A stretch of DNA of 60,771 nucleotides. It comes from Acidobacteriota bacterium (GTDB lineage Bacteria > Acidobacteriota > Terriglobia > Terriglobales > Acidobacteriaceae). The stretch is taken from NCBI GenBank assembly GCA_021781495.1, contig JAJXWS010000008.1, positions 1 through 60,771 on the forward strand. Direction: 5' to 3'. The position numbers were made by a program, and so were the translations under genes. The notes below the pieces were generated by a model. The model did no database searches, was not told the origin of the DNA, and saw only the letters and a program-made list of their open reading frames with translations. Shown piece by piece: positions 27,518-60,280 of this stretch (the first letter of the stretch is position 1; each line of letters begins with the position of its first letter).

Positions 27518-27518
27518 A
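27474..27518 (+). repeat. attL: left 45-bp direct repeat
   Basis: This copy runs from the anticodon loop of tRNA-Glu (tRNA position 32) through its 3' end and CCAA. An identical copy is at 41918-41962. The pair defines an integrated element with a 14,444-base circle on excision. Confidence 0.93.
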
Positions 27519-28752: not shown

Positions 28753-28802
28753 TTCCTCTCCAAGTCAAGGGTGGTGAGACGGCACGGATAGCTGCTTTCA
28801 GC

Positions 28803-30269: not shown

Positions 30270-30326
30270 GGGGATGTCCTCACATAATTCTACGAGGAGG
30301 CGAAGCGCCACTATTTGACGATCTGC

Positions 30327-35547: not shown

Positions 35548-35575
35548 AACCGTCCACACACCAGCAACGCTGCTG

Positions 35576-39696: not shown

Positions 39697-39699
39697 GAA

Positions 39700-39755
39700 T
39701 TGATATATACATCAATAAATCGTATTTTACAAGCATATATTGATATTTACATCAA
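39700..39755 (-). promoter_or_regulatory. Paired hipBA operators
   Basis: Two near-identical palindromes, TTGATATATACATCAA (39700-39715) and TTGATATTTACATCAA (39740-39755), lie exactly 40 bases apart (about four helical turns) just upstream of hipB. This is the arrangement expected for cooperative HipB dimers. Confidence 0.8.
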
Positions 39756-39789
39756 TTTTTGTAAGCTTGGACACCTCTAAGTTGTCAAC

Positions 39790-39825
39790 TCATGAGATGT
39801 CCACTCATGAGCTGACATCTCATGA
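39790..39825. repeat. CTCATGAG palindrome cluster
   Basis: TCATGAGATGTC (39790-39801) and GACATCTCATGA (39814-39825) form a perfect 12-bp inverted repeat whose loop contains another CTCATGAG palindrome. It lies between the end of the stb-like operon and the hipBA promoter. It could be a terminator-like hairpin or a protein-binding site. Confidence 0.55.
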
Positions 39826-39853
39826 ACAGTGAATGCGATGGAGGTTAACCTAT

Positions 39854-44634: not shown

Positions 44635-45101
44635 CCGCTGCCGGACCATGCCCGCCCCTTTTGTTCAGAAAGATAGTGAGTCCAGGCAAAGGTACGCGCC
44701 CGCTCCACTTGACGGACCCATTGTAATCAGGCTGGCTCGCGCTTGGCCTTGCGTCCTTCAGCGTCTGTTCATATTCGGCAATCTGCTTCAGCGTCTCGCC
44801 GCGCATCGCCTTGCCGTTCCGCAACGCACGATACCATCGCACAGGCCACTCGACCGCCATACATTTCTGGCCCCATTTCCGTTTCCACGGAACGAGGCGA
44901 CGAAACCTGCAAAGCTCCGTCCTGAAATTACCCGCCATGTGGTCCGGAGAAGGATTCGCACGCCACTGCATCCAGCACGGCGTCGAGTGATCCAAACTCC
45001 CGCTGAGCGCCTATAAGTCCACCGGCCGCCAAACACCCTCGAAGCTGTCCCGCATTTCGGGGTTGCAATTCCGTAAATCGGAATTTACCCTGTTCGCCGT
45101 G
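44635..45101. other. Divergent promoter region between GH20 and regulator genes
   Basis: No supported gene is seen in 467 bases. A minus-strand frame overlaps the GH20 start but lacks recognisable content. The right end holds the regulator's operator palindrome. Confidence 0.5.
45067..45085 (+). promoter_or_regulatory. Operator palindrome 1 (regulator promoter)
   Basis: AATTCCG-TAAAT-CGGAATT is a perfect 7-5-7 palindrome, 16 bases upstream of the regulator ATG at 45102. The position suggests autorepression. Related palindromes precede three other operons of the island. Confidence 0.75.
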
Positions 45102-46337
45102 ATGAGTCCGAACCGCCTTTCCGCAAACCGCCCCTTACCCGACGAACGGCCCGACGACCTGCCCGACGAGCCCGCATCCACCGAAGGCCGCCGCAACTCT
45201 GACCGCAACGAGTCGCAAACCGTGTTGCGCGCCTGCCAGATACTCAAGGCCTTTCGCTACCTGGACGAGGAACTCGCGCTGACAGAGGTGATGGAGCGGA
45301 CCGGCCTGCCCAAGACAACCACCTTCCGCCTGCTCCGCACGCTCATCCACGGCGGACTTATTCAGCGCGCCGGCGCGGGCATCTACCGCAACAGCTTCGG
45401 CCCCATCGCAGAGCGTCCCTTCCGCATCGGCTTCGCTTCGCAGGGAGACAACGAATTTGCGCGCGAAGTCACGCGCGGCGTTGAGGCGGTAGCCGCGCGC
45501 GAGCACATCCAGCTCATCACGCTGAACAACCGCTACAGCGCCCGCGAAGCGCTTCGCAACGCCGACTTGCTCATCCGCGAGCAAGTCGACCTGGTGCTGG
45601 AATTTCAAACCTACGAGCGGGTGGCTTCGGTCATCGCGTCTAAGTTTCTCGCAGCCAACACGCCGGTCATCGCCATCGAGGTCCCGCATCCCGGCGCCAC
45701 CTTCTTCGGCGCGGATAACTACAAAGCCGGGCAAATCGGCGGCCGCGCGCTCGGCCGCTGGGCGCGCGAGCACTGGAATGGCGACGTGCAGCAGCTCGTA
45801 CTGATGGAGCTGCCCATTGCCGGATCGCTGCTTGAACTGCGCCTGGCCGGCTTCATCGACGGGCTGCGCCAGGAGCTCCCGCACATCCTGCAGCTACCCC
45901 TGGCCCGCCTCAACGGCCGCGGCTCATTTGAGCAGGTGCTGGACGTGATGCGTAAATATCTCCGCCGCCGCGGTTCGCGACGCACGCTGGTCGGCACGGT
46001 GAATGACGTTTGCGCTCTGGCCGCGCTGCGCGCCTTTGAGGAGGCCGGCGCTGCGCAGGAGTGCGCCGTCATGGGGCAGAACGCCCTGCGCGAGGCACGC
46101 GCCGAGCTGCGCCGTCCGGGCACCCGGCTCATCGGTTCCGTGGCCTACTTCCCCGAGCGCTACGGCGAAGAGCTGATCCCGCTGGCCTTGAACATCCTGC
46201 GCAAAAAGCCTGCACCCGCCACCGTCTTTGTGAAGCACCAGCTCCTTACCCCGCGCAACGTCGATCTGATTTACCCGCTGGATGAGCGAAGCACCGCAAC
46301 AGCCGAGACCGGAAAGCGCGGACGTGCCGATGCCTGA
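45102..46337 (+). CDS. Transcription regulator: IclR-type HTH fused to LacI-type sugar-binding domain
   Basis: This 411-residue protein begins MSPNRLSANR. After a Pro/Asp-rich tail, residues ~38-105 form a winged HTH of IclR type (VLRACQILKAFRYLDEELALTEVMERTGLPKTTTFRLLRTLIHGGLI). Residues ~107-390 form a periplasmic-binding-protein type 1 sugar domain as in LacI/RbsB (VDLVLEFQTYERVASVI, TPVIAIEVPHPGATFFGADNYKAGQIGGRALG, GTVNDVCALAALRAFEEAG, GSVAYFPERYGEELIPLAL). It should sense a sugar or sugar acid and bind the nearby ATTCCG palindromes. The domain pairing is uncommon. Confidence 0.82.
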   Translation: MSPNRLSANRPLPDERPDDLPDEPASTEGRRNSDRNESQTVLRACQILKAFRYLDEELALTEVMERTGLPKTTTFRLLRTLIHGGLIQRAGAGIYRNSFGPIAERPFRIGFASQGDNEFAREVTRGVEAVAAREHIQLITLNNRYSAREALRNADLLIREQVDLVLEFQTYERVASVIASKFLAANTPVIAIEVPHPGATFFGADNYKAGQIGGRALGRWAREHWNGDVQQLVLMELPIAGSLLELRLAGFIDGLRQELPHILQLPLARLNGRGSFEQVLDVMRKYLRRRGSRRTLVGTVNDVCALAALRAFEEAGAAQECAVMGQNALREARAELRRPGTRLIGSVAYFPERYGEELIPLALNILRKKPAPATVFVKHQLLTPRNVDLIYPLDERSTATAETGKRGRADA

Positions 46338-46348
46338 CCGCCAAACCC

Positions 46349-46365
46349 ATTCCGCAATTTGGAAT
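46349..46365 (+). promoter_or_regulatory. Operator palindrome 2 (RuBisCO-like operon)
   Basis: ATTCC-GCAATTT-GGAAT, with G at the inner edge of the left arm, matches the same consensus as operator 1. It lies about 110 bases upstream of the RuBisCO-like protein ATG at 46475. A lone CGGAAT half-site follows near 46379. Confidence 0.65.
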
Positions 46366-46474
46366 CGAGCGGCAGAAACGGAATAGTGTGCGCGGCAACG
46401 TCCATTGGGCTTAACGTCAAGCAGTACCGAGCGCGAGAAGAGTATCCCCAGGCAAACGTAAGGATGATCAGGAC

Positions 46475-47776
46475 ATGAGCGACACGCTTCCCACTCAGCC
46501 CGGAGCCGCAAGCCGAATCAAAGCCCGCTATTGGATTGAAACTGCGTTTCCGCTTGCCGATGCTGCGTTCATCATGGCCGGCGAGCAATCCACGGGCACC
46601 TTCGTGCGGACTCCCGGCGAAACCGACGAGTTGCGCGCCCGCTATGCTGCGCGTGTGGAGAAGATTGTCGAGCTCGGCGCCGTCGATGCGCCTTCGCTCA
46701 GCGGTTCCGGTCTGCCCCGAAAGCACACCGGGCCCGTCATCCGGCGCGCGGCTGAGGTTACCCTCTCCTGGCCGCTTGAAAACATGGGCCCATCGCTGCC
46801 GAATCTGCTGGCCACCGTCGCGGGCAATCTCTTTGAGCTCAAGCCCTTCTCTGGTCTCAAGCTGCTCGACATCGAGTTACCCACCGAGTTTCTCAGCGTC
46901 TATCAGGGCCCGCAGTTCGCAGTGGAGGGCACTCGCCAGCTCACCGGCGTTTACGGCAGGCCACTCATCGGCACCATCCTCAAGCCCAGTGTCGGCATGT
47001 CGCCCGAGCAGACGGCCGCCCAGGTGCGCATGCTGGCCGAGGCCGGGGTGGACTTTATCAAGGACGATGAGTTGCAGGCCGACGGCCCGCATTGCCCCTT
47101 CGATCAGCGCATTCCCCAGGTGCTGCGCGTCCTCAACGAATATGCCGACCACACCGGCAAGAGGCCCATGTATGCCGCCAACATCACCGGCGAGATCGAT
47201 CAAATGCAGCGCCGTCACGACCTGGTGGCAGCCGCGGGCGGAACCTGCGTCATGGTCAGCCTGAACAGCGTGGGCCTGCCCGGCATGGTTGCGCTTCGGC
47301 GTCATGCCAGCCTGGCCATTCACGGCCATCGCAATGGATGGGGAATCTTCGGCCGCTCCCACGCCATCGGCATGAGCTTTATTGCGTATCAAAAACTCTG
47401 GCGTCTCGCCGGCATCGATCATGTCCACGTCAACGGCCTGCGCAACAAATTCTGCGAGGAGGATGCCTCGGTCATCGCCTCTGCGCGAGAATGCCTCACG
47501 CCCATGTTCGCGCCTCCCTACAAGGGCTGCACCATCATGCCGGTGTTCTCCTCAGGCCAGTCAGCGCGGCAGGCGCCAGATACCTACAAGGCGCTCGGCA
47601 GCCTGGACCTCATCTACGCCTGTGGCGGCGGCATTCTCGCCCATCCCGCGGGACCGGCAGCCGGCGTGCGCAGCCTTCACCAGGCGTGGCAGGCCGCAGT
47701 CGACGGCATTCCACTCGCGCAGTATGCAAGCACGCACACAGAATTGCGCGGCGCTCTGGAGGCCTTTCCCGATTGA
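46475..47776 (+). CDS. RuBisCO-like protein (form IV), likely sugar-acid phosphate decarboxylase/transcarboxylase
   Basis: This 433-residue protein has the RuBisCO large-subunit fold with key residues kept: K170 in GTILKPSVG (proton-abstracting Lys175 equivalent), K196-D198-E199 in DFIKDDE (carbamylated Lys and Mg ligands), H283/H285-R286 in IHGHRNGWG, loop-6 Lys K325 in NGLRNKF, and the phosphate-binding FSSGQSA and ACGGGILAHP. It does not look like a CO2-fixing enzyme: context is catabolic and no small subunit or phosphoribulokinase is present. RuBisCO-like proteins paired with DUF1537 kinases act on 3-oxo-isoapionate 4-phosphate (OiaC, OiaX) in D-apiose catabolism, which is the best inference. 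Confidence 0.88.
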   Translation: MSDTLPTQPGAASRIKARYWIETAFPLADAAFIMAGEQSTGTFVRTPGETDELRARYAARVEKIVELGAVDAPSLSGSGLPRKHTGPVIRRAAEVTLSWPLENMGPSLPNLLATVAGNLFELKPFSGLKLLDIELPTEFLSVYQGPQFAVEGTRQLTGVYGRPLIGTILKPSVGMSPEQTAAQVRMLAEAGVDFIKDDELQADGPHCPFDQRIPQVLRVLNEYADHTGKRPMYAANITGEIDQMQRRHDLVAAAGGTCVMVSLNSVGLPGMVALRRHASLAIHGHRNGWGIFGRSHAIGMSFIAYQKLWRLAGIDHVHVNGLRNKFCEEDASVIASARECLTPMFAPPYKGCTIMPVFSSGQSARQAPDTYKALGSLDLIYACGGGILAHPAGPAAGVRSLHQAWQAAVDGIPLAQYASTHTELRGALEAFPD

Positions 47777-49068
47777 GCACCTCAACGCAATCCAGCATCC
47801 TTTACGCGTACTACGGCGATGACTTCACCGGCTCCACTGATGTGCTGGAGGCGCTGGCACTGCATGGCATGCCCGCCGTTCTCTTTACGAATCTGCCCAG
47901 CGAGGCCGACCTGGCCGCATTTCCGCATTGCCGCGCAATCGGCATTGCCGGCGAAAGCCGCAGCCACAGCCCCCGCTGGATGGATCGGCATCTGCCCGAA
48001 GTCTTCCGCAGAATGCGTTCCCTGGGCGCCGCGATCAACCACTACAAGGTCTGCTCCACGTTTGACAGCTCCCCGCGCGTGGGCAGCATCGGGCGAGCCA
48101 TCGAGTTGGGCCGCAAAGCATTCCAGGCAAAGTTCGTGCCCGTCGTTGTCGGTACTCCGCATCTCGGTCGAGCCGTTGCCTTCGGCAACCTGTTTGCCGC
48201 GGCCAGCAACGCCATGCACCGCATTGACCGCCACCCCACCATGCGACGACACCCCGTCACGCCCATGTACGAGGCCGATCTGCGGCTCCATCTCGCCCAG
48301 CAGACCTCGCTGGCGATGGGCCTCGTGGACTTGCGCGCATTCGAGCAGGGCACGGCAGCCCGACAGTTGCAGACGGAGATTGCTGCCGGCGCAAAGGCTG
48401 TCATCTTCGATGGCATCCACGATGCCATGCTCAAACAGACAGCCGCGATCCTCTGCAATCTCGCAACAGACCGCCAGATTCTTGCCGTTGGCAGCTCCGG
48501 ATTTACCTACGGCCTGTTGCGCCATTGGCAGCGTTCCGGCCGTCTGGCGCATCAAGCACGGCCCGCTGCGCCCAGGCCCGTCGATCAGATACTCGTGCTC
48601 AGCGGCAGTTGCTCGCCAGTCACCGCCGTACAGATTCGTCACGCTCGCGCGCAGGGTTTCGCCGCATGGCGGCTCGGCGATCCTGATTCCTGGCCCCTGC
48701 GCAAGCGACAGGCGCTCAAGGCCCTCGCCGCAGGCCGCAGCGTCATTCTTTACACCGCCATGGGTCCGCTCTCTGCAAAGCAGCAATCCGGCAAAGAGTG
48801 GACGGCGTGGCTGGGCAAACTTCTTCGCGAGATTGTGTCGCTCTGCGGCGTGCGCAGAGTTGTCATCGCCGGCGGCGACACGGCCACGCACGCCGTCCAG
48901 CAACTCGGCCTGCGCGCCCTCACCTTCGTTGCGCCGCTCACCCCGGGAGCCCCGCTCTGCCGCGGCTACGCTCCGGAATCACCGCTCAACGGCCTTGAGC
49001 TTGTGCTGAAAGGCGGCCAGATTGGCCCCGAGGATTTCTTCTCCAACGTGCTGCACGACAGTTGTTAA
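47773..49068 (+). CDS. DUF1537 four-carbon/branched acid sugar kinase (OiaK-like)
   Basis: This ~431-residue kinase has the N-terminal substrate-binding motif ILYAYYGDDFTGSTDVLEAL, YKVCSTFDSSPRVGSIGRA and GTPHLGR, and the C-terminal nucleotide-binding parts VLSGSCSPVT and RRVVIAGGDTATHAV. DUF1537 enzymes phosphorylate acid sugars such as threonate, erythronate and 3-oxo-isoapionate. I chose the TTG at 47773 because it overlaps the RuBisCO-like stop (TTGA) and no ATG or GTG suits. The pair probably makes and then cleaves one phosphorylated acid. Confidence 0.85.
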   Translation: MSTSTQSSILYAYYGDDFTGSTDVLEALALHGMPAVLFTNLPSEADLAAFPHCRAIGIAGESRSHSPRWMDRHLPEVFRRMRSLGAAINHYKVCSTFDSSPRVGSIGRAIELGRKAFQAKFVPVVVGTPHLGRAVAFGNLFAAASNAMHRIDRHPTMRRHPVTPMYEADLRLHLAQQTSLAMGLVDLRAFEQGTAARQLQTEIAAGAKAVIFDGIHDAMLKQTAAILCNLATDRQILAVGSSGFTYGLLRHWQRSGRLAHQARPAAPRPVDQILVLSGSCSPVTAVQIRHARAQGFAAWRLGDPDSWPLRKRQALKALAAGRSVILYTAMGPLSAKQQSGKEWTAWLGKLLREIVSLCGVRRVVIAGGDTATHAVQQLGLRALTFVAPLTPGAPLCRGYAPESPLNGLELVLKGGQIGPEDFFSNVLHDSC

Positions 49069-49083
49069 CGCAGCACGGCACCT

Positions 49084-50331
49084 TCAGCAGGCAGCGAGGT
49101 CCGCATCGATTCGCTGCGTGCAGTCGATACTCGCAAAAATCGCCGCGCTCGTCACAACCATTCCAGCGATAAGCCAAAGCGGCAAGTTGTAGTTGCCGGT
49201 CAACTGCACAATGTAGCCAAACAGAATCGTGCAGAAGAATCCTCCCGCCTGGCCTGCGGTGTTCATCATGCCTGTCGCGGTGCCGCTGGCGCGGCCTCCA
49301 ATCGCCACGCACATCGCCCACGCAGAAGGCAGCATCAGGTCCATCGCGCCAAAGCCGACACTTGAGAGCACCAGCACGCAGAGAACGCCGTGGCACAACG
49401 TCATCGCAACAATCACCACCGCGGTGCCGGTCAGGCACACGCCCGGAATCAGGCGCAGCGCCCGCTTGGCGCCCCAGCGCGCCGCAAGCCGGTCGCTCAG
49501 CACGCCGCCCGCCAGGTTGCCTGCAATTCCCAATGCAAACGGCAGCGATGTCAGCAGCATGCCCTCCAGCGGAAGTCCCGTCTTATGCAGAAACCACGCC
49601 GGAAACCAGGAGAAGTAAAACCAGCTGCAGCATCCATAGCATCCATAGGCCAGCACCACCATCCACAGCGCGCGCGAACGCAGAGCACGCTGAAACGGAA
49701 CGGCCCCCGCACGCTCCCGCACGCCGCCGTCCTCGATCTCCGCCCGCTCCTCTGCTGAAAGACCGGGGTCCTCTTCCGGCCGGTCGCGATACAGCCTGTG
49801 CCACACTACTGCCCACACAAAACCCAGCACGCCCAGCAGGAAAAACACCGCGCGCCACCCGAAGAGATACTGCAGCGGAACAATCAGCAGCGGCGCCAGC
49901 ACGCCCCCCAGGCGACTGGCCGCCCACAGCGTTCCCTGGCTGCGCGCGCGCTCCCGTGCCGGGAACCAGCGGGAGATCGCCCCCGCGGCATTGGGATACG
50001 CTCCGGCCGAACCCATCCCGAAGAAAAACCGCGCCGCGGCCAGTTGCCAGAATCGATGGCACCACGCCGTCAGCGTCGTAAAGGCTGACCACCACGTAAC
50101 AATCCGCGTAAGCTCAACCCGCTGCCCGTGCCGGTCTCCCATCACGCCGGAAGGAATCTCGAACAGGCCATTGGCGAGCACGTATCCGCTCAGCACCCAG
50201 CCCCATTCCACGGTCGAGATATGCAGATCCGATTGAATGGCAGGACCGGTCACGGCAATCGCCATGCGGTCAAGAAATGTAAGGATGGACAGTGCGCTCA
50301 GCAGGCCGAGCACTCTGTGGCGCCGTTTCAA
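49084..50331 (-). CDS. MFS transporter, anion:cation symporter (hexuronate/sugar-acid type)
   Basis: This 415-residue protein has 12 predicted membrane segments. The N-terminus (LGLLSALSILTFLDRMAIAVTGPAIQ), GVMGDRHGQRVELTRIVTWWS (MFS loop 2-3 motif), ARFFFGMGSAGAYPNAAGAISRWFPARERARSQG and GGVLSDRLAARWGAKRAL are typical of the ACS family (ExuT, GarP, tartrate carriers). It likely imports a sugar acid for the kinases of the island. It overlaps the upstream racemase-family gene by four bases and is convergent with the kinase gene. Confidence 0.88.
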   Translation of the reverse strand: MKRRHRVLGLLSALSILTFLDRMAIAVTGPAIQSDLHISTVEWGWVLSGYVLANGLFEIPSGVMGDRHGQRVELTRIVTWWSAFTTLTAWCHRFWQLAAARFFFGMGSAGAYPNAAGAISRWFPARERARSQGTLWAASRLGGVLAPLLIVPLQYLFGWRAVFFLLGVLGFVWAVVWHRLYRDRPEEDPGLSAEERAEIEDGGVRERAGAVPFQRALRSRALWMVVLAYGCYGCCSWFYFSWFPAWFLHKTGLPLEGMLLTSLPFALGIAGNLAGGVLSDRLAARWGAKRALRLIPGVCLTGTAVVIVAMTLCHGVLCVLVLSSVGFGAMDLMLPSAWAMCVAIGGRASGTATGMMNTAGQAGGFFCTILFGYIVQLTGNYNLPLWLIAGMVVTSAAIFASIDCTQRIDADLAAC

Positions 50332-51029
50332 ACGCTGTCCCTCTCCGCGGCCTGTGCGCCAACCAGCACCCGGCGTGCCTGCAGCACGGCAAGCTCAGGG
50401 CTTGAAAGCACCGGCATCGCCAGTGCTCCGGGCTCCAGCGTCGCCACAACACGCGCCATCGATGCCTGTGCCAGCACGATCAGGTCCACTCCCTTCAAGT
50501 CCTCCAAGAGCGCCTTTCGCAGCAGCCTGTCATGTGTCTCTGTATCGCCGGCCAGCACTGCGGGAAATGCGCCTTCACACAGGCACTCTACCAGTTCGAC
50601 ACTGCGGTTCGCATCTGCCGCCTTCTGGCGCAGCAGCTCCGTGGTGGGGTCCAGCGTGGTGCGCAGGGTGGCCAGCACGCCAATCCGATGCCCCTCGCGC
50701 ACCGCCACCTCTGCCATCGCTTCATCGATGCGCAACACCGGCAGGTCAAAGAGTTGCTGTGCCAGCGCAACTCCCGGGCCAATCGAGGAGCACGTCACAA
50801 GCACCGCATCTGCGCCCGCCGCAGCAGCCGATGCCACCTGCTCCACAACGCGGCGCATCGTCATCTTCCGCAGCCTGCCCGCGCGTATCGTGTCCTGGAT
50901 CAGGCTCTCATCCACCATGTGAAAGAAGTCGGCCTCCGGCAGATGCTGACGGCAAAGTGCGGTAAAGACCGGCGTCAATGTTGGGCTGGTATGGATCAGT
51001 GCTAGCGTTGGACGAGCCGTTGTGACCAC
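50328..51029 (-). CDS. Asp/Glu/hydantoin racemase-superfamily protein
   Basis: This 233-residue protein has the two Cys-centred half-sites of the racemase superfamily: DAVLVTCSSIGPGVALA (first Cys) and VELVECLCEGAF. The second catalytic position in DLIVLAQASMARV has Ala-Gln where Cys is usual in racemases. Loss of one Cys suggests an isomerase or decarboxylase-like role rather than amino acid racemisation. The GTG start at 51029 has GAGAGGA upstream. It is translated with the MFS gene and is divergent from the hydrolase operon. Confidence 0.75.
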   Translation of the reverse strand: MVTTARPTLALIHTSPTLTPVFTALCRQHLPEADFFHMVDESLIQDTIRAGRLRKMTMRRVVEQVASAAAAGADAVLVTCSSIGPGVALAQQLFDLPVLRIDEAMAEVAVREGHRIGVLATLRTTLDPTTELLRQKAADANRSVELVECLCEGAFPAVLAGDTETHDRLLRKALLEDLKGVDLIVLAQASMARVVATLEPGALAMPVLSSPELAVLQARRVLVGAQAAERDSV

Positions 51030-51453
51030 GATAGTTCCTCTCAGACAAGCGGATTGCGCTGGGCAAGTGCAAAGCCCCTGTTTTGCGCAGCCGAACAGAG
51101 CCGCTTGATTCCGGTCAAGAGCATCCCGCGGAAATCCTCCGTCGGCCAGTCTCGACACTCAACATCGACAGCATTCCGTGCGCTGGAATGATGCAACGGA
51201 AAGCGCCGAGCCGTACTCGCCCCGTGCTCGCCCGGCCGCGTGCCTGCCGCAAATGGCCTGCAGGCGCAGCAGCGGCCACGGAATCTACACTGCCCGTCCA
51301 TGAATGCACATCCACCTGGCTTGCCAACACGACGCACATCGCGCCAACCGCGCAAACACGCAGGCCACACTCAAATTCCGGTCCGCGGAATCTCGAGAAC
51401 TGTCTAAATGCGGGGACCTGCCCTTTGCCGCAGCGTGTATAAGAGAGGTTGCC
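51030..51453. other. Divergent promoter region with operator 3
   Basis: This 424-base gap separates the racemase/MFS operon from the hydrolase operon. It has no supported gene. The palindrome at 51374-51392 could control one or both directions. Confidence 0.55.
51374..51392 (+). promoter_or_regulatory. Operator palindrome 3 (hydrolase operon)
   Basis: AATTCCG-GTCCG-CGGAATC has the same 7-5-7 layout as operator 1 (six of seven outer pairs). It lies 61 bases upstream of the GH78-like gene's ATG. Confidence 0.72.
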
Positions 51454-53847
51454 ATGCATCCGTCTCTCCACTCGCTCAGCGCCTTCCTTCTGGCCGCCGC
51501 GTGCAGTGCCGCTTTCGCGCAGCCTGCGAACGCCGCGATGACGACGCCCGGGGAAGCGCCGGAAGCGATGTGCGGCGCCTCTCCCAGCCAGACAATCGGC
51601 AGCTTTCACGCGCCGCTGGCCGAGCAATATATCTGGACCGCGGACGACGCAGCGGTCATCACCCATCCGCAGGAACTCAGCCGGCTGAAGCGCGATGACT
51701 TCAAGGTCGAGCCGCATTTCTTCCGCACGTCGTTCACGCTCGCCCAGCCTCCGCCCAAAGCCACACTCTATGTTGCCGGCCCGCGCATCGCTCACGTATG
51801 GATCAACGGCAACCTCGTAACAACGCTTCACTACAACGGCAGTCATCACATCGGCTTTGCCGCCATGGCGATACACGTCGCGCCCTTCCTTCGCACAGGA
51901 GACAACACCCTCGCACTCGAGGTTGTGCGCGGCTACGGAAGCCATCACCACACCAACTCGCTGCAGACCAGCTGGCTCAACTCCGGCGAAGTCCTCGCGG
52001 TCAAAATTCTGCCTGCGGATCAGGGCGTGCCCGCATCCCCGCTGCTCCAGAGTGACGCTACGTGGAAGAGCACAACCACGCCATCGAGCGGATGGCAGTC
52101 GCCTCACTTCAACGACGCCGCGTGGAAGCCCGTCGCAACCCTCGGCGGCATTGAAAGCAACATCGACTTCTTCCAGTGGAACGCCGATGCAGGCATGTAT
52201 GCATGGCCTGGTTATCTCGGAGAAGCTCCCTACCTGGCGAATTGCCTTCTGCCACCGGCAACGACCACCGCAACCACCGATGGTCTGCTGCTCGACTTTG
52301 GACACGAGCTGAACGGACGCCTGCTCATCACGGCGCGCACCCATGCGGTCCATGCCACCATCCGCTACGGAGAGTCCCTTGGCGAGCTGCTCCATCAGCC
52401 CTTCCTCGGCGACATTTCGCTGGATGCCCCCGCAGGTCACATCGCGCACGGCCCCAAAACCGGCTTCCGTTATGCCCTCGTGCGCTATGCCGATCCAAAG
52501 CCGAAAGCCAACGTCGCAGCAGAAGCAATCGCCTATCCCGCTTCCCAAGTAGCCAGCTTCGAATCGAGCGATCCAACACTGAATCGCATCTGGAACACCG
52601 CAGTCGATACAGCGCATCTGTCCATGCAGGACTCGATCCTCGACGGCATCAAGCGAGACCGCGGCCGCTGGGCTGGCGACAACGAGGTCATCGATCGCGT
52701 CATCGCCGACGTGTATGGCGACGCGCGTCTGGTGCGGGCAGGCCTGGAGGACAGCATTGGCAATGCTCCCGTCACGGGCCCGGTCAACGGCCTGCCGGGC
52801 TACTCGGCCTGGTGGGTCATCAGCGAGTCTGAGTACGTCATGCGCTGGGGTGATCTTCCTCAATTAGGCAACGTGCACAGCCGCATGCTGCAGCTCCTTG
52901 CCCTCATGCAGCGCGATCTTGATGCCCACAATATTTACGCTGCCAAAGGTGGCGGCAAGCCCTTCGTCGACTGGGCTCCGGAGTTCAGTAGTGATTCCCC
53001 TGAAGCGCGACGCGCCGTTCACTTCGAGTACCTTCTCGCCTTTCGCCGCGCAGCATGGCTCCTTCGTCTCGTGGGCGACAACGCCCATTCGCAGCAATAT
53101 GACGCTCTCGCGGACGCCATGACTACAGCCGCGCAGCAGTTCCTCACAAATGCGCAAGGCGCATTCGGCGATCGCTGGCAGACCAACGCCATCGCCGTGC
53201 TCGCGGGAGCCGTGCAAACTCCGGCCCAGCGTCGCGCCGTATGGAGCGTCCTTGCCAGAACCGTTGCAGAGCGCAAATCCTACGACGTCATCACGCCCTA
53301 CTACGGCAGTTATCTGCTCGCAGCCATGGCAGAGCTGGGGCACAGGCAGCAGGCTCTTGCATGGATGCGCGCCTACTGGGGCAGCATGCTCAACGCCGGC
53401 GCAACAAGCTTCTGGGAGGCGTGGGACCCGCAATGGGCCGCCTCCGATCCGCACGCGCGGCTGCAGGCCGACGATAAAGTTGGCTATTACACTAGCCTCA
53501 GCCACGGCTGGTCCAGCAGTCCCGCCGCATGGCTCCTCGAGCAGATTATCGGCGTTACATCGCGCCAGCCCGGCGATCAACGCGTGCAGGTGCGTCCCGA
53601 TCTCGCGGGTCTCCAATGGATCAAAGGAGCAGTCGCAACACCGCTCGGCGCCTTGCGTGTTGAGGCAGCCCCTGCGCGGATCGCAGTCACCACTCCCTCC
53701 GGCATGACGGCTGAAGTTCTTTTGCCCGCAGGCCGATGGCAGTGCAACGGCCGCTCCATCGGAACTACTGCTGCCACCGGCGATCCAGGAGTCAGCACCA
53801 TCTGGAATCAGGCTGGACAACTTTTATGTATAAGGCAATCGCAATGA
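51454..53847 (+). CDS. GH78-like alpha-L-rhamnosidase, exported
   Basis: This 797-residue protein begins MHPSLHSLSAFLLAAACSAAFAQP, a signal peptide. Beta-sandwich domains (residues ~60-330; ATLYVAGPRIAHVWINGNLV) precede an (alpha/alpha)6 barrel with DSILDGIKRDRGRWAGDNEVI, the GH78 general-acid region (usual form DCPQRERxGWxGD), then VDWAPEF and TSFWEAWD. It should cleave terminal rhamnose from rhamnogalacturonan or related side chains. GAGAGG precedes the start. Its stop overlaps the next gene (ATGA). Confidence 0.85.
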   Translation: MHPSLHSLSAFLLAAACSAAFAQPANAAMTTPGEAPEAMCGASPSQTIGSFHAPLAEQYIWTADDAAVITHPQELSRLKRDDFKVEPHFFRTSFTLAQPPPKATLYVAGPRIAHVWINGNLVTTLHYNGSHHIGFAAMAIHVAPFLRTGDNTLALEVVRGYGSHHHTNSLQTSWLNSGEVLAVKILPADQGVPASPLLQSDATWKSTTTPSSGWQSPHFNDAAWKPVATLGGIESNIDFFQWNADAGMYAWPGYLGEAPYLANCLLPPATTTATTDGLLLDFGHELNGRLLITARTHAVHATIRYGESLGELLHQPFLGDISLDAPAGHIAHGPKTGFRYALVRYADPKPKANVAAEAIAYPASQVASFESSDPTLNRIWNTAVDTAHLSMQDSILDGIKRDRGRWAGDNEVIDRVIADVYGDARLVRAGLEDSIGNAPVTGPVNGLPGYSAWWVISESEYVMRWGDLPQLGNVHSRMLQLLALMQRDLDAHNIYAAKGGGKPFVDWAPEFSSDSPEARRAVHFEYLLAFRRAAWLLRLVGDNAHSQQYDALADAMTTAAQQFLTNAQGAFGDRWQTNAIAVLAGAVQTPAQRRAVWSVLARTVAERKSYDVITPYYGSYLLAAMAELGHRQQALAWMRAYWGSMLNAGATSFWEAWDPQWAASDPHARLQADDKVGYYTSLSHGWSSSPAAWLLEQIIGVTSRQPGDQRVQVRPDLAGLQWIKGAVATPLGALRVEAAPARIAVTTPSGMTAEVLLPAGRWQCNGRSIGTTAATGDPGVSTIWNQAGQLLCIRQSQ

Positions 53848-54986
53848 AACTCCTTGTGCGCGTGTTCGCTTGGATCTGCTGTGTTGGATTCGTTTGTGCC
53901 TACGGTCAGGACAGCGGAACCGGCTTCCTCTTTCCGCCCCTCTCCAGCGGCAACGCTCTGCCGGGCACGCAGCGCGATAATCATGCCTCCACACTGGTTG
54001 AGCTGAAGAACGGCGACATCCTCGTCGCATGGTTTGCCGGAACCAAAGAGGGCGCGCCAGACGTCGCCATCTATGGCGCTCGCCTGCATTACGGTACGTG
54101 GAGCGCTCCCATCGAGTTGGCGCGGGCCGCGGGGGTCGCATGCTGGAATCCCGTCCTCTTCCACACGCGCGATGGCAGGCTCTGGCTCTACTACAAGTTC
54201 GGCACGCATCCCAGCACATGGCTCGGCGCGCGCAAATGGAGCAGCGACGAAGGCGTCACCTGGAGCGCCTCCGAACCGCTTCCCTCCGGCATTCTGGGGC
54301 CAATCAAGGATAAGCCGCTCGTGCTCCCCAACGGCGACATCGTCAGCGGATCGTCCGTCGAGAACGGCAAGTGGACAGCCTGGATTGAGCGCTCCGCAGA
54401 CAATGGCGCCACCTGGACGCACTTCGGCCCCATCACCGTGCCGGATAACCTCGACGTGCCCGGCGCTGCCGCGCTTGCTGCCGCCGCGCACCCTGCAGCG
54501 CCTGCAGGTAATCCTGCGCAGAGTGTACACACCAAGGTATATCCGGCGGCGAAATCCACCATCGGCATCATTCAGCCTGCGGTCGTTTCGCTCGGCGGCC
54601 ACCATCTGCGCTTCTATGCGCGCAGCCACACGCGATCCGCGCGCATCGCCGTTGCAGACTCCCACGACGACGGCGCCACATGGACGCAGGCTCGCTTCCT
54701 CAACCTGCCCAATCCCAACTCCGGCATCGATGCAGTGCGGCTACGCGATGGATGCATCCTTCTCGTCTTCAACAACAGCTATAACCAGCGCACGCCTCTC
54801 AACCTGGCTGTCAGCCGCGATGGAGAGCACTTCCACATTTTCAAAACCCTTGAGGACGGCCCCGGCCAATACTCGTATCCGGCCATTGTGCAGGCCGCCA
54901 ATGGAGACGTTCTCATCACCTACTCCTGGCGGCGCGAGACCATCAAGTTCGTTCGCCTGCCTTTGCGCGATGTACCTCAGCACTAA
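53844..54986 (+). CDS. Sialidase-superfamily (BNR/Asp-box) six-bladed propeller, exported
   Basis: This 380-residue protein begins MKLLVRVFAWICCVGFVCAYGQ, a signal peptide. Asp-boxes SSDEGVTW, SADNGATW and SHDDGATW and an N-terminal RDNHASTLVELKNGDILVAWFAGTKEG block are typical of GH33-like or related sialidase-fold enzymes. In a pectin-directed operon the substrate could be a 2-keto-3-deoxy sugar (Kdo/Dha of rhamnogalacturonan II) or another uronate instead of sialic acid. The start is four bases before the end of the GH78-like gene. Confidence 0.82.
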   Translation: MKLLVRVFAWICCVGFVCAYGQDSGTGFLFPPLSSGNALPGTQRDNHASTLVELKNGDILVAWFAGTKEGAPDVAIYGARLHYGTWSAPIELARAAGVACWNPVLFHTRDGRLWLYYKFGTHPSTWLGARKWSSDEGVTWSASEPLPSGILGPIKDKPLVLPNGDIVSGSSVENGKWTAWIERSADNGATWTHFGPITVPDNLDVPGAAALAAAAHPAAPAGNPAQSVHTKVYPAAKSTIGIIQPAVVSLGGHHLRFYARSHTRSARIAVADSHDDGATWTQARFLNLPNPNSGIDAVRLRDGCILLVFNNSYNQRTPLNLAVSRDGEHFHIFKTLEDGPGQYSYPAIVQAANGDVLITYSWRRETIKFVRLPLRDVPQH

Positions 54987-55083
54987 GTTCGCTCGGCATT
55001 CGTCCGCTGCGCCTCAGCAATCGCCGCCGTACCAGCGACGCATCCGTAAACAACGTTCGATACCGCTGCCTCAAAGGAGATTC

Positions 55084-56376
55084 ATGCAACAACAATCCCA
55101 TCGTGCAAACCTGTGGTGCATCCGCGGCGTCTGCGCGGCGCTGCTCTTGCTTGCGTCGGTCCTGCTCAGCGGCATCGCCGCTTCCGCCGCACCCGTCTGC
55201 GATGTCCGCGCATACGGCGCAAAAGGCGACGGCACAACCAAGGACACGCGCGCCATCCAGAGCGCCATCGACGCCTGCGCCGGCACAGGCGGCATCGTTC
55301 GCCTCTCCAGCGGAACCTTCCTCACCGGCCCGCTCGTTCTCAAGAGCCGCATCACGCTTGAGGTACAAGCCGGCGCCACACTGCTCGGCAGCCAGGATAG
55401 GCACGACTATCCCCCAACCGAGGAGTTGCGCGAGCCGGCCGTGCAGCCTCTCATCAGCGCATCGCACGCCAGCCACATCACGCTGCGCGGCGGCGGCGTC
55501 ATCGACGGCGCAGGTCAGCCCTGGTGGGCAGACGTCTACAGCCACCGGCACATGCCCGACTTCACGCCCGCTCTGCGTCCACGCCTCATCCTCTTCGATC
55601 ACTGCAGCCACATCCGCATCGAAAATATCACCGCGCAGAACTCGCCCTCCTGGCAAATCGTTCTCTACTACACCAGCAACGTTCTCATCCGGAACGGAAA
55701 GATCCTCGCCCCCGCGCGCTCGCCAAACACCGATGGCATCGATCCCTTCTCCGCGCACCACGTCCGCATCGAGCACATGACCATCGACGTCGGCGACGAC
55801 AACGTCGCCATCAAATCCGGCCAGCCCGGCTCACCGGGTCCAGACGATCCCAGCACGGACATCACCATCCACGACTGCACCTTTCTGCACGGCCACGGCC
55901 TCTCCATCGGCAGTGAGATTGCCGGCGGCGTGCAAAACGTGCGCGCGGCTCACGTCACCTTCACCGGCACCACCAACGGAGTCCGCATCAAATCCGGCCG
56001 CGACCGCGGCGGCGACATCGGCCACTTCCAGTTCAGCCACCTCAACATGACCAATGTCGTCACGCCAATTGTGGTCACCGATTACTACGGAGAGGCCCGC
56101 AACGCCCCGGCGCAGCAGCCCGTCACCCGCCTCACGCCTCGCATGCACGACATTCGCATCGAACACCTCAGCGCCACCGGCGCCCGGCAGGCAGGCCTCG
56201 TTGCCGGACTGTCCGAGAGCCCCATCACCGGCCTCACGCTAAAGGACGTCAATATCCGCGCGCAGCGAGGCATGACCGTGCGTTACGCCACAATCCGTGC
56301 GCATCGCCTCCAGATCACAGCAGATGACGGCAAGCCCATCACTCTGCTTGAGGCCGCCCAAATCCAACCGAAATAG
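55084..56376 (+). CDS. GH28 polygalacturonase-family hydrolase, exported
   Basis: This 430-residue right-handed beta-helix has a signal segment (AALLLLASVLLSGIAASAAP). VCDVRAYGAKGDGTTKDTRAI is the pectinase N-terminal signature. The catalytic set is SPNTDGIDP, VGDDNVAIKSG, GHGLSIGSE and NGVRIKSGRDRGG. It hydrolyses galacturonan or rhamnogalacturonan chains. An AAAGGAG site precedes the ATG. It ends the hydrolase operon after a 97-base gap from the BNR gene. Confidence 0.92.
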   Translation: MQQQSHRANLWCIRGVCAALLLLASVLLSGIAASAAPVCDVRAYGAKGDGTTKDTRAIQSAIDACAGTGGIVRLSSGTFLTGPLVLKSRITLEVQAGATLLGSQDRHDYPPTEELREPAVQPLISASHASHITLRGGGVIDGAGQPWWADVYSHRHMPDFTPALRPRLILFDHCSHIRIENITAQNSPSWQIVLYYTSNVLIRNGKILAPARSPNTDGIDPFSAHHVRIEHMTIDVGDDNVAIKSGQPGSPGPDDPSTDITIHDCTFLHGHGLSIGSEIAGGVQNVRAAHVTFTGTTNGVRIKSGRDRGGDIGHFQFSHLNMTNVVTPIVVTDYYGEARNAPAQQPVTRLTPRMHDIRIEHLSATGARQAGLVAGLSESPITGLTLKDVNIRAQRGMTVRYATIRAHRLQITADDGKPITLLEAAQIQPK

Positions 56377-56517
56377 CTCCACAACACCGAAGGGTAGCCC
56401 TTGCCTTACGTCCGCTCTCCATATCAGTTCGGCAGGCTACCCTCCTCATTCATCTGGACTTTCTTTCCCATATCGCCATGCCTCCAGCGCGGCCTCAGCC
56501 CTCCGGCTAGACATGCC

Positions 56518-56534
56518 ATTCCGCTTGCCGGAAT
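56518..56534 (+). promoter_or_regulatory. Operator palindrome 4 (kinase/PdxA2 operon)
   Basis: ATTCCG-CTTGC-CGGAAT is a perfect 6-5-6 palindrome, 122 bases upstream of the second DUF1537 kinase gene. It is the fourth copy of the island's operator consensus. Confidence 0.75.
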
Positions 56535-56656
56535 AATGCCGATCTGCATCGGCACACAAAAAAGAAAGTAAATGTATACTCTCGAAAATAAACGAGACTT
56601 CGTTCATGCACACCTCTGCCGTACACGCGCTCCAGGAACAAAACCGGAAGACGGCT

Positions 56657-57721
56657 ATGCCTGCATCTCGAATCCTGCTGCTCGCCGACGACCTCAGCGG
56701 CGCATGTGACGCCGCGGCGGCCTTCCTCCGCGCTGGCCACCGGGTGCGTGTCTGGATCGACCCCGCCTCCTCCGCGAGCAGGGATGCGGAGGAGAGCGTG
56801 CAGGCCTTCCACACGGCATCGCGCAACCAGGACGCAGAGACTGCCGCAAGAGCCGTCGCGCAAGCCGTCCGCCGGCTGCCGCTCACACCCGGAACGCGCA
56901 TCTTCAAGAAAATCGACTCCACGCTCCGCGGCCCCATCGCGGCTGAGCTCGCTGCAATCCAAAGCGCGCTCGGTGCGCCCGCAGTTCTCTTTGCACCGGC
57001 ATTCCCCGCAGCCGGCCGCGTCATCCGCAACGGCATTCTTGAGGTACATGCCGCAACCGGCACGCTCGAGCACCATAACGTGCGCAACCTGTTCAGTGCC
57101 GCGCTTCAACCTGTCATCGCCATCATTCGCCACCCAGAGGACCTCTCCACCGCGCTCGCCGCAGGCAAGTCACTGTTGCTGTGCGATGCCGTCACGCAGC
57201 AGGACCTGGAGGCGCTGGCCCGTGCCGCACAATCCCTTCCCGGCCTGCTCCTGGCCGGCTCCGCTGGCCTTGCCGCCGCGCTCGCCAGCCTCGCGGAGCA
57301 CGTGCAACCCGCAGCCCCTCTGCCGCACGCCGCGCGCACCTTGCTCGTGCTGGGCACAACGCACGCCGTTACTCTCCGGCAACTCGAGCCGCTCGCGGCC
57401 AGTCATCCCTCGGGCTTCCATCCCAACGCCCGCCTGCTCCGCATCGAGCATCAGGCCGGCGATGACGAATGCATCCGTCGCGAGTTCGAGCAATATCAGC
57501 CCCACGCCATCCTGCTATCCGGCGGCGACACGGCCCTGCTTGCCGCGCGTGCCCTCGGCGCTGCATCCTTCACCTTGCGCGGCGAATTCGCTCCCGGCGT
57601 TCCGTGGGGCATCGCGCACGGCGGCCTCATGGACCAACGCATCGTCATTACAAAATCCGGCGGTTTCGGCTCGCCCGAACTCCTCTGCAGCATACTCAAA
57701 GCACTGGCGGCTTCTTCATGA
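56657..57721 (+). CDS. DUF1537 four-carbon acid sugar kinase (threonate/erythronate type)
   Basis: This 354-residue kinase begins MPASRILLLADDLSGACDAAAAFLRAG. It also has FKKIDSTLRGPIAAEL, LLLAGSAGLAAAL, AILLSGGDTALLAARAL and VITKSGGFGSPELL, the DUF1537 domains I and II. It is shorter than the first kinase and resembles DtnK-type enzymes, which phosphorylate D-threonate or erythronate at O4. GGAAG precedes the chosen ATG; an ATG at 56606 lacks a site. The stop overlaps the pdxA2 start (ATGA). Confidence 0.87.
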   Translation: MPASRILLLADDLSGACDAAAAFLRAGHRVRVWIDPASSASRDAEESVQAFHTASRNQDAETAARAVAQAVRRLPLTPGTRIFKKIDSTLRGPIAAELAAIQSALGAPAVLFAPAFPAAGRVIRNGILEVHAATGTLEHHNVRNLFSAALQPVIAIIRHPEDLSTALAAGKSLLLCDAVTQQDLEALARAAQSLPGLLLAGSAGLAAALASLAEHVQPAAPLPHAARTLLVLGTTHAVTLRQLEPLAASHPSGFHPNARLLRIEHQAGDDECIRREFEQYQPHAILLSGGDTALLAARALGAASFTLRGEFAPGVPWGIAHGGLMDQRIVITKSGGFGSPELLCSILKALAASS

Positions 57722-58719
57722 ACTCTCTTCCCCGTATCGCCATCAGCATCGGAGATCCAGCCGGCGTCGGTGCCGAAATCGCGCTCAAGGCGCTCAGCGA
57801 CCCGGCCACGGCCAACCTTGCGCACTGGCTGCTCATCGGCGATCAGGCCGCGCTCGCAGCGGCTGCGCGGCTCAGCCGGATTCCGTTGCACAGCCTGCCC
57901 TGTGAACTCGTCCCCATGCATGCGCTGCCAGCGGATCACGCTCTTGCCTTCGGCCAGCTCCGTGCGGAGTACGGTCTCGCCGCCGTCGAATACGTGCGCC
58001 GCGCCACCGAGCTCTGCCTGCAGGGCAAGGCGGGAGCCATGGTCACCGCGCCCCTGAACAAAGAGGCCGTTACGCTGTCGGGCCGCTCCTTCTCCGGCCA
58101 CACGGAGTACATCGCCGAGCTGACCGGCGCCACTGAGTCCCGCATGCTCCTCGTTTCAGACAAGCTCGCCACCGTGCACGTCAGCACCCATATACCGCTC
58201 GAGCAGGCCTGCCGGCTCAACACTCATCGCATCCTCCGCACCATCCAGCTCGGTGACGAGGCGCTGCGCCTCATGCGCCAGCAGCCTCCGCGCATCGCCG
58301 TCTGCGGCCTCAACCCCCACGCCGGCGAGCATGGCCTCTTCGGCACGCAGGATGCCGAGTTCATCGCGCCTGCCATCGCGCAGGCAAGCCAGATGGGCAT
58401 CTCGTGCTCCGGCCCGCACTCGCCAGACACCATCTTCATTCGCGCCCTCCGCGGCGAGTTCGATCTCATCGTGGCCATGTATCACGACCAGGGCCACATT
58501 CCCATGAAGCTCATCGACTTTGAAGCAACCGTGAACGTCTCGCTCGGCATTCCCATCCTGCGCACCTCCGTCGATCACGGCACGGCCTTCGACATTGCCG
58601 GCCGCAACCAGGCTGATCCCACGAACATGAAAGCGGCCATGCGCCTGGCTGCCCGCATGGCCATCGGCAAGCGCGTCCGCCAGGGCAGGCTGACCAGCCA
58701 GGAACAGGGGAACGGCTGA
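57718..58719 (+). CDS. pdxA2: PdxA2, 4-hydroxythreonine-4-phosphate dehydrogenase family
   Basis: This 333-residue protein of the PdxA fold has ISIGDPAGVGAEIALKAL, VTAPLNKEAV, GHTEYIAELTG (metal His), CGLNPHAGEHGLFGTQD and VAMYHDQGHIPMKLIDF (metal Asp/His). Next to a DUF1537 kinase it is expected to be PdxA2: it oxidises and decarboxylates threonate or erythronate 4-phosphate to dihydroxyacetone phosphate and CO2. It would not serve vitamin B6 synthesis. One base separates its stop from the symporter ATG. Confidence 0.9.
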   Translation: MNSLPRIAISIGDPAGVGAEIALKALSDPATANLAHWLLIGDQAALAAAARLSRIPLHSLPCELVPMHALPADHALAFGQLRAEYGLAAVEYVRRATELCLQGKAGAMVTAPLNKEAVTLSGRSFSGHTEYIAELTGATESRMLLVSDKLATVHVSTHIPLEQACRLNTHRILRTIQLGDEALRLMRQQPPRIAVCGLNPHAGEHGLFGTQDAEFIAPAIAQASQMGISCSGPHSPDTIFIRALRGEFDLIVAMYHDQGHIPMKLIDFEATVNVSLGIPILRTSVDHGTAFDIAGRNQADPTNMKAAMRLAARMAIGKRVRQGRLTSQEQGNG

Positions 58720-58720
58720 C

Positions 58721-60280
58721 ATGCATCGTGTCGATCTCCTGCTCGTCGCCGCTTACCTGCTCATGCTGCTGGGCGTGGGCCTGCGCTTCCGTCGCGGTCA
58801 AACCACAACCGACTCCTACTTCGTTGCCAACCGCTCCATGCCCGGATGGGCCGCAGGCATCTCGCTCCTCACCACCATCATCACCAGCGTCACCTTCATC
58901 GCATATCCCGGTGCTGCCTATGCAGGCGACTGGAACCTGCTCGTTCCCGGCATCATGCTGCTGCTGGTTCTGGCCACCATCGGGCCGTTCATCGTGCCTT
59001 TCTTCCGCCATGTCGTCTCCATGTCGGCCTATGAGTACTTCGGCAAGCGCTTCGGGGCCGGCGTCCGCATGTATGCATCCTTCGCATTTGCCGCGGGCCA
59101 CTTCGCCAAGATGGGCTTCGTCTTCTATCTGCTCGCGCTGTCGCTTACCAGCATCACCGGATGGCCCGTCGCTCCCGTGATCACCGCGCTTGGCGCCGTC
59201 GCCATTGCATATACCTTCATCGGTGGCCTGCGCGCCGTAATCTGGACCGACGTCGTTCAGGGCGTGCTGCTGTGGACAGGCATCACCATTACACTTGCCA
59301 TGCTGCTGCTCTCGCCGCACTCCGCGCCCGCCGCCATGCTGCATCTTGTCGCGATCCATCACAAGACCAGCCTCGGCAGCTTCAGCTTTCATCTTGACAA
59401 GCCCACATTCTGGACACTTGCCTTCTACGGCATCTTCTTTTATCTGCAGAAGTACACCGCCGATCAAACTGTCGTGCAGCGCTATCTCGCCGCGCGCGCT
59501 GACCGTTCCGCCCTGCGCGGAGCAGTTCTCGGCGGCGTCCTCTGTCTTCCGGTCTGGACAGCCTTCATGCTCATCGGATCGCTCCTCTGGGCCTTCTATC
59601 AGCTCCCCGGCAACACGCTGCCCTCCACCATCACGCGTGCTGACCAGGTCTTCCCGTACTTCATGGTCACGCAACTTCCAGCCGGAGCAGGCGGGCTCAT
59701 TCTTGCGGCGCTCTGCGGCGCGGCCATGTCCATGCTGGCCTCTGATCTCAACTGCCTTGCCCTCGTGCTCGTCCAGGATTTCTACGCCCACTTCTTCCCA
59801 CGCCACTCAGACGCGCAGCGACTCCGCTTCGGCAAGGCATCGGTGGTTCTCTGCGGACTGCTCGCCATCGCGGTCGCACTCATCCTTACCCACTCACGTG
59901 GTCCGGCTCTCGCGCTCTACTACACGGCCACGGCCATCGTCGCCGGTGGGCTCGCAGGCCTTTTCCTGCTTGCCTTTCTCGCGCGCCGCGCAGGCACCTC
60001 CGCAGCCGTCGCCGGCATCGTCGCCAACCTCATCTTCACCGCGTACGCTTCGCTCACGCTGGACCACGGCAAGATCCTCAACCTGGGCCGCTACAACTAC
60101 CCCTGGCACGAGTACACCATCGGCGCTGTCGGCAACCTTCTGCTGCTCGGTGTCGGCCTCGCTGCCGCTTGCATTCTTCCCGCGCACAAGGCCTCGCCCG
60201 CCGCGCACACACTTTGGGACTGGCTGCTGCAACGCAGGCAGTCCCGTTTATCCGCAATCCACCTTGGAGAAGCTCCATGA
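58721..60280 (+). CDS. Sodium:solute symporter family transporter
   Basis: This 519-residue protein has about 13 membrane segments. The SSS pattern is clear: DSYFVANRSMPGWAAGISLLTTIITSVTFIAYPG, GLRAVIWTDVVQGVLLWTG and AAMSMLASDLNCLALVLVQDFY with the Na+-site Ser/Thr region. It probably imports the acid sugar used by the neighbouring kinase and PdxA2. It starts one base after pdxA2 and overlaps the aldolase gene by four bases. Confidence 0.9.
   Translation: MHRVDLLLVAAYLLMLLGVGLRFRRGQTTTDSYFVANRSMPGWAAGISLLTTIITSVTFIAYPGAAYAGDWNLLVPGIMLLLVLATIGPFIVPFFRHVVSMSAYEYFGKRFGAGVRMYASFAFAAGHFAKMGFVFYLLALSLTSITGWPVAPVITALGAVAIAYTFIGGLRAVIWTDVVQGVLLWTGITITLAMLLLSPHSAPAAMLHLVAIHHKTSLGSFSFHLDKPTFWTLAFYGIFFYLQKYTADQTVVQRYLAARADRSALRGAVLGGVLCLPVWTAFMLIGSLLWAFYQLPGNTLPSTITRADQVFPYFMVTQLPAGAGGLILAALCGAAMSMLASDLNCLALVLVQDFYAHFFPRHSDAQRLRFGKASVVLCGLLAIAVALILTHSRGPALALYYTATAIVAGGLAGLFLLAFLARRAGTSAAVAGIVANLIFTAYASLTLDHGKILNLGRYNYPWHEYTIGAVGNLLLLGVGLAAACILPAHKASPAAHTLWDWLLQRRQSRLSAIHLGEAP

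Follow-up and report, generated by a model that had tools for sequence, protein, structure and literature searches.

A conserved 17-bp palindrome and a candidate IclR-head/sugar-sensor regulator at a pectin side-chain and RuBisCO-like locus in an Acidobacteriota genome

The DNA considered here is a 60,771-nucleotide stretch of an Acidobacteriota bacterium (Acidobacteriaceae; assembly GCA_021781495.1, contig JAJXWS010000008.1, positions 1–60,771), referred to below as the window. Between 45068 and 56534 it holds repeated copies of a 17-bp palindrome, ATTCCG-N5-CGGAAT, set among genes for a transcriptional regulator (at 45102), a RuBisCO-like protein (RLP), kinases, transporters and glycoside hydrolases (GH). 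Comparison with related genomes suggests that these palindromes are operators of that regulator and that they govern a regulon for pectin side chains and the RLP. The features of the locus are listed below with strand and basis (HTH, helix-turn-helix; MFS, major facilitator superfamily).

45063–45068, + strand: predicted −35 element of the regulator gene, TTGCAA, sharing one base (45068) with operator 1 and 1 bp closer than the orthologue consensus from which it is predicted
45068–45084, no strand: candidate operator 1 (exact), regulator promoter; conserved in orthologues
45086–45091, + strand: predicted −10 element of the regulator gene, TACCCT, from orthologue promoters
45102–46337, + strand: regulator, HTH_IclR (residues 40–89) and Peripla_BP_4 (residues 114–369); Pfam, AlphaFold2, PDB fold match
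46349–46365, no strand: candidate operator 2 (1 mismatch), RuBisCO-like operon; motif match, target comparison
46412–46417, + strand: predicted −10 element, TAACGT, 46 bp after operator 2
46475–47776, + strand: RLP, OiaX-like; Pfam, NCBIfam OiaX 444 bits (cut-off 700), PDB 3nwr E 5.6e-122
47782–49068, + strand: DUF1537-type kinase (SBD_N/NBD_C), OiaK-like, start uncertain; Pfam, NCBIfam
49084–50331, − strand: MFS transporter, best NCBIfam model D-galactonate transporter, below cut-off; Pfam, NCBIfam
50328–51158, − strand: Asp/Glu/hydantoin-racemase-family protein; homologues suggest a true start nearer 51035; Pfam, homologues
51173–51189, no strand: candidate operator 3 (1 mismatch), racemase/MFS operon; motif match, target comparison
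51375–51391, no strand: candidate operator 4 (exact), hydrolase operon; motif match, target comparison
51438–51443, + strand: possible −10 element, TATAAG, 46 bp after operator 4, by eye; no TAnnnT match
51454–53847, + strand: GH78-type alpha-L-rhamnosidase; Pfam
53823–54986, + strand: BNR_2 (sialidase-like) protein; Pfam
55039–56376, + strand: GH28 polygalacturonase-type protein, start uncertain; Pfam
56518–56534, no strand: candidate operator 5 (exact), kinase/PdxA operon; motif match, target comparison
56575–56580, + strand: possible −10 element, TATACT, 40 bp after operator 5
56606–57721, + strand: second DUF1537-type kinase; Pfam, NCBIfam
57718–58719, + strand: PdxA-family dehydrogenase; Pfam, NCBIfam
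58721–60280, + strand: sodium/solute symporter (SSF); family search

A preliminary description of this DNA had reported four palindromes, and all four were found again: three exact copies (45068–45084, 51375–51391 and 56518–56534) and one with a single mismatch (46349–46365). Its further statement that the window holds no comparable copy elsewhere was wrong, as a fifth, ATTCCGTGCGCTGGAAT at 51173–51189, also has one mismatch, equals the 46349 site in quality and precedes the divergent racemase/MFS genes. Chance as the source of the window copies was rejected on shuffles, hexamer expectation and genome count. At ≤2 mismatches the window has 8 matches, against a mean of 2.5 and a largest value of 7 in 100 dinucleotide shuffles; 3 exact copies were observed in the 11.5-kb stretch that they span, against 0.0024 expected from the hexamer counts of the window; and the genome (3,597,074 bases, 197 contigs) has 3 exact copies, every one of them within that stretch. 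Genome-wide, sites with ≤1 mismatch number 14 vs 1 for a backwards control pattern. Many random matches across the genome would have told against the regulon proposed in the preliminary description; perfect copies proved confined to this locus, and the idea stands. In the crude open reading frame (ORF) listings examined, none of seven other 1-mismatch genome sites was recognised as a regulon-gene promoter, and two of these, inside a rhamnosidase-like ORF (L010, by eye) and an apiosidase-type gene (L011), were treated as chance. Calling sites coding or intergenic by the longest open frame gave no discrimination in this GC-rich DNA, and no such claim is made for background matches.

The candidate regulator (411 residues) is an IclR head joined to a ribose-binding-protein-type sensor. 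HTH_IclR (PF09339; 2.2e-14 in the window protein by Pfam) and Peripla_BP_4 (PF13407) are both present in 51 of 51 aligned members, window protein included; no IclR effector domain occurs among the 14 Pfam families listed for these members, and no LacI HTH model among the families listed for the window regulator or the aligned members. An AlphaFold2 model built on the 51-member alignment (mean predicted local distance difference test score 86.3, predicted template modelling score 0.71) matches ribose- and other sugar-binding periplasmic proteins over residues 105–397, the top five PDB matches having Z 31.1–31.5 and root-mean-square deviations of 2.0–2.5 over 270–282 residues within model residues ~105–394; this fold search barely covered the HTH part, whose assignment comes from Pfam. 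With both domains in all members and no IclR effector domain listed, the regulator is therefore not a classical IclR protein (COG1414 type): it has the N-terminal HTH_IclR of that family, but Peripla_BP_4 in place of the C-terminal effector domain. It shares a periplasmic-binding-protein-type sensor with the LacI/GalR family, but its head is HTH_IclR rather than the LacI-type HTH. Bacillus subtilis AraR joins a GntR head to a LacI-type sensor. Common to LacI/GalR, AraR and the window regulator are a sugar-binding-type sensor on an HTH head and an association with carbohydrate operons; unlike AraR, the window regulator has an HTH_IclR head, and its best sensor folds are ribose/sugar periplasmic proteins.

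The motif is of a known IclR type. A published subgroup of IclR group-1 operators, WTTYCRYW3RYGRAAW (PMC8222616), has the 17-bp layout WTT-11-AAW in common with the window motif, so that in operator type the window regulator agrees with classical IclR proteins. The IclR regulators treated in PMC8222616 are described there as ~250 residues long and carry their own C-terminal effector-binding domain, in contrast to the ribose-binding-type sensor here. No IclR/ribose-binding hybrid is described in the available portions of PMC8222616 and PMC5882156, and no paper on an IclR-head/Peripla_BP_4 regulator or on this regulon occurs among the literature matches listed, which does not prove absence.

Conservation was assessed with regulator orthologues from 300 family genomes and further relatives from genome contigs (80 of 122 kept), taking as upstream region the 360 bp before the HTH-coding part and dropping near-duplicates and loci with <200 bp. 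By identity to the window protein these fall into clade A (≥57%, 34 loci), which is one branch in the regulator tree, clade B (41–57%, 37 loci) and clade C (<41%, 8 loci). An upstream site with ≤1 mismatch occurs in 24/34, 0/37 and 0/8 loci, respectively, and one with ≤2 mismatches in 29/34, 4/37 and 0/8; the isolated clade-A motif matches seen in B/C loci (L072, L080, L113) are located away from the regulator's upstream region. When inverted repeats were ranked in clade A without a prior motif, ATTCCG with spacer 5 came first (13/34; runner-up 4). A palindromic expectation-maximization search recovered ATTCCG-N5-CGGAAT in clade A (log-likelihood 279.9 vs 23.5–31.2 in five letter shuffles), a TTTCG-type palindrome in the 37 loci of clade B (219.3 vs 24.7–32.7) and TGTTCA-N5-TGAACA in clade C (56.3 vs 21.3–27.1), all 17 bp with a 5-bp spacer. 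The operator arms are conserved in orthologues while the spacer letters change. The palindrome is thus kept at the regulator (24/34 orthologues vs 0/45 paralogues at ≤1 mismatch) and at the same operons, in agreement with the preliminary description, which missing conservation would have contradicted. Individual clade B/C paralogues (e.g., L034, L105, L110) have 17-bp palindromes of their own, of TTTCG, GTCTC and TGTTCA types, and regulator promoters of a Terriglobus-like group (L028, L029, L030, L031, L059, L060, L085) have two operators, 76 or 84 bp apart. Of two cultured relatives with an orthologue, Terriglobus albidus DSM 26559 has a clear site, and Bryocella elongata DSM 22489 has none that is clear.

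Each clade's 17-bp palindrome follows residues 72–73 of the recognition helix. When half-site positions 3–4 could take any letter, the palindrome threshold was reached by 57 of 76 regulators. Of the 32 with TT at residues 72–73, 28 have TC at these positions on both arms; all 11 with TM have TT there, and 3 of the 4 with AT have CT (TT/TM contrast, Fisher p 2.4e-7, without kinship correction, most TT regulators being clade A). In TtgV, Ser48 and Thr49 directly contact DNA (PMC8222616); by our own reading of the L-P-K/R turn, as opposed to a computed alignment, these correspond to residues 72 and 73 of the window regulator.

The preliminary description placed its four sites upstream of the regulator, RuBisCO-like, hydrolase and kinase/PdxA operons, and the same operons carry the palindrome in relatives. 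Targets were counted from crude gene calls: a site with ≤1 mismatch had to lie between 300 bp upstream of a gene and 20 bp within it. The counts cover 35 loci (30 from clade A, partly related, and five fragments fetched because they hold sites) and leave out truncated genes at locus edges and genes with short upstream stretches. Sites precede first genes (GH127 12/13; regulator 19/29, some called starts lying upstream of the operator; racemase 10/17; second kinase 2/2; GH78 with ≥55% identity 2/2) and are absent from internal genes (first kinase 0/12, MFS 0/12, PdxA 0/4, SSF 0/3). The remaining counts are 5/16 for RLP, 1/7 for BNR, 0/11 for distant GH78 and 19/205 for other genes, several of which are divergent partners in a common intergenic region. 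The RLP site is present in 5/5 loci without GH127 directly upstream and in 0/11 with it; because it is absent exactly where GH127 directly precedes, the operator keeps to the start of the transcription unit. Other genes adjacent to sites encode GH42 (L048), GH29 (L050, L179) and a DUF5060/Collagen_bind_2 protein (L063).

These targets uphold the regulon of the preliminary description, although “local” understates its extent, other contigs holding targets as well. In the window genome an unlinked GH127 orthologue on contig 31 has its own 1-mismatch site 83 bp upstream of the called start, and on contig 120 another kinase/PdxA pair, behind a pectinesterase gene, is preceded by a 1-mismatch site. 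In G204 the regulator is on contig 31, whereas contig 37 carries the RLP/kinase and racemase/MFS operons; the exact sites there precede the called starts of RLP and racemase by 150 bp and ~320 bp, respectively.

Site and regulator also tend to occur together. Sixteen relatives with a clade-A orthologue have 23 exact copies, 18 of them at regulon genes, and a search of 30 background loci at E 1e-20 found no regulon gene in any of them. GH127 orthologues from 30 genomes have a site with ≤1 mismatch in 16/21 genomes with the clade-A regulator vs 2/9 without it (Fisher p 0.013, no kinship correction).

The geometry of the promoters bears on the sign of regulation. In 27 clade-A regulator promoters (operator at ≤2 mismatches), TAnnnT stands at offset +1 after the operator in 16 and TTGnnn immediately before it in 15. 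The highest count in a 3-bp window is 17 for each element, compared with maxima of 5 (TAnnnT) and 6 (TTGnnn) in 200 shuffles. With these as predicted promoter elements, the operator would fill the −35/−10 spacer, and binding there should therefore block polymerase. In the window (45086–45102), and with the same spacing by eye in L045 and L064, the predicted regulator transcription start lies a few bases before the ATG, so the mRNA may be nearly leaderless. At 34 target promoters, by comparison, TAnnnT lies 46–48 bp past the operator in 21 (shuffle maximum 6), including RLP 5/5 and GH127 12/14. Because this pattern was first spotted by eye in the same sequences, held-out GH127 loci were tested: 9 of 20 have a site with ≤1 mismatch, and 7 of these 9 have TAnnnT at 46–48 bp (shuffle mean 0.35, maximum 3), the seven representing about four lineages by our own reading. 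If TAnnnT is the −10 element, the operator would be centred near −22 in the regulator promoter and near −68 in those of GH127 and RLP, and an operator upstream of −35 at a near-fixed distance fits activation. The geometry thus suggests autorepression of the regulator and activation of GH127 and RLP. A further conserved block, AAATAAATGTATACTCTCGAAAATAAA, follows the operator in second-kinase promoters (window 56563–56594, L170, L179); it may be the site of a different factor or part of the promoter proper.

With motif, conservation, target genes, domain make-up and helix/motif covariation established by comparison, we put at roughly 0.85 the probability that the palindromes are operators of the 45102 regulator, an IclR-type winged-helix head with a ribose-binding-type sensor, governing a pectin side-chain/RLP regulon. 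We infer that the regulator binds them, probably as a dimer in which each head takes one ATTCCG half-site. An operator within the −35/−10 spacer of the regulator's own promoter would exclude polymerase, giving autorepression; where it stands upstream of −35, at the RLP and GH127 promoters, it would lead to activation once a sugar-type ligand fills the sensor. The targets would comprise debranching enzymes for pectin-type side chains (GH127, GH78, GH28 and BNR_2, with GH29 and GH42 in some relatives), uptake systems and a sugar-acid route with the RLP, two kinases and PdxA.

The preliminary description had named the regulator at 45102 as the candidate binder, which covariation and co-occurrence support with exceptions, and several observations weigh against this interpretation. 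Upstream sites at ≤2 mismatches are missing from 5/34 clade-A orthologues (L026, L027, L056, L066, L070), and the genomes of 5/16 relatives with a clade-A orthologue lack an exact copy. Three of the 23 exact copies lie elsewhere (G268 contig 82, G196 contig 19, G174) and 2 (G148, G256) were not located. Among the four TT regulators outside clade A that passed the palindrome threshold, TC occurs on both arms in only 2 (L082, L120), on one arm in L084 and on neither in L087. No site (≤1 mismatch) precedes GH127 in 5/21 genomes with the regulator; conversely, GH127 of G380 and G334 keeps a 1-mismatch site, yet these genomes (92% and 96% complete) have no regulator match at E 1e-80. The 46–48-bp offset is found in racemase 4/10, GH78 0/2 and second kinase 0/3 (its TAnnnT at 39–42), and the choice of the five fragments by their sites tempers the target counts.

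Other explanations were weighed as well. The regulator may be a plain repressor released by sugar at every site, LacI-style and with no activation, which we consider unlikely though worth keeping in view. Its periplasmic-binding-type sensor resembles LacI and AraR repressors, the operator lies within the −35/−10 spacer of its own promoter, and the second-kinase and GH78 promoters have no fixed 46–48-bp offset. Repressors, activators and dual regulators are all found in the IclR family (PMC8222616). Set against this is the operator 46–48 bp upstream of a −10-like element, beyond −35, in RLP (5/5), GH127 (12/14) and held-out GH127 loci (7/9). That the sites serve another, co-occurring transcription factor would explain the 1-mismatch site that GH127 retains in two genomes in which no clade-A regulator was detected; we regard this as improbable, since motif and recognition helix vary together in this regulator family, and since the motif is of published IclR type (PMC8222616) and precedes GH127 in 16/21 genomes with the regulator vs 2/9 without. 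Single copies do arise by chance, because 111 of 300 family genomes hold at least one exact copy, and yet chance, or an RNA-level role as terminator or attenuator, is very hard to reconcile with five good copies at five promoters, exact genomic copies at this locus only, conservation in orthologues with changing spacer letters, and 0/30 background loci with a regulon gene.

OiaX and OiaK, the 3-oxo-isoapionate-4-phosphate decarboxylase and kinase (NCBIfam NF042437/NF042436), are the best NCBIfam models of the RLP and the adjacent first kinase, but scores fall below the equivalog cut-offs (444 and 444.7 bits vs 700; RLPs of relatives 437 and 537 bits against OiaX), so their substrates may differ. 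The PdxA protein exceeds the general pdxA cut-off (341 vs 290), and the GH127 protein matches a single NCBIfam model, aceric acid hydrolase (93 bits vs a cut-off of 950). The putative substrate of the regulon is a pectic side chain that would yield an unusual sugar acid. Apiose was considered as a possible substrate: the sole apiosidase (PF13204) match of the genome is on another contig (G000 contig 144:7455–8357; L226, L011), with a 1-mismatch operator match inside, and the OiaX/OiaK scores are below cut-off. Another IclR-head gene adjoins the PF13204 gene on contig 144 (by eye). The regulon locus may adjoin a mobile element, judging from ORFs read by eye at 27496–41409 (integrase-like, 27496–28752; conjugative relaxase/TraI-type, 30327–33113; ParA-type ATPase, 40684–41409).

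More broadly, and tentatively at somewhat less than even odds, the regulator may belong to an Acidobacteriota family of IclR-head/ribose-binding hybrid sensors with clade operators set by residues 72–73, in which clade A would be dual, repressing itself while activating pectin (possibly rhamnogalacturonan-II) debranching and the catabolism of unusual, possibly branched, sugar acids via the RLP. A recognition code of two residues could be tested naturally on the operators that differ between clades. Since the RLP seems to be under one common switch with kinases, transporters and debranching enzymes, promoters and proteins are at hand for testing the function of an OiaX-like RLP. In the IclR motif survey, Table 2 has no Acidobacteria row and “Acidobacteri” appears nowhere in the main text (PMC8222616); for this phylum, which has no entry in the survey's taxonomic table, the palindrome provides a DNA handle on regulation.

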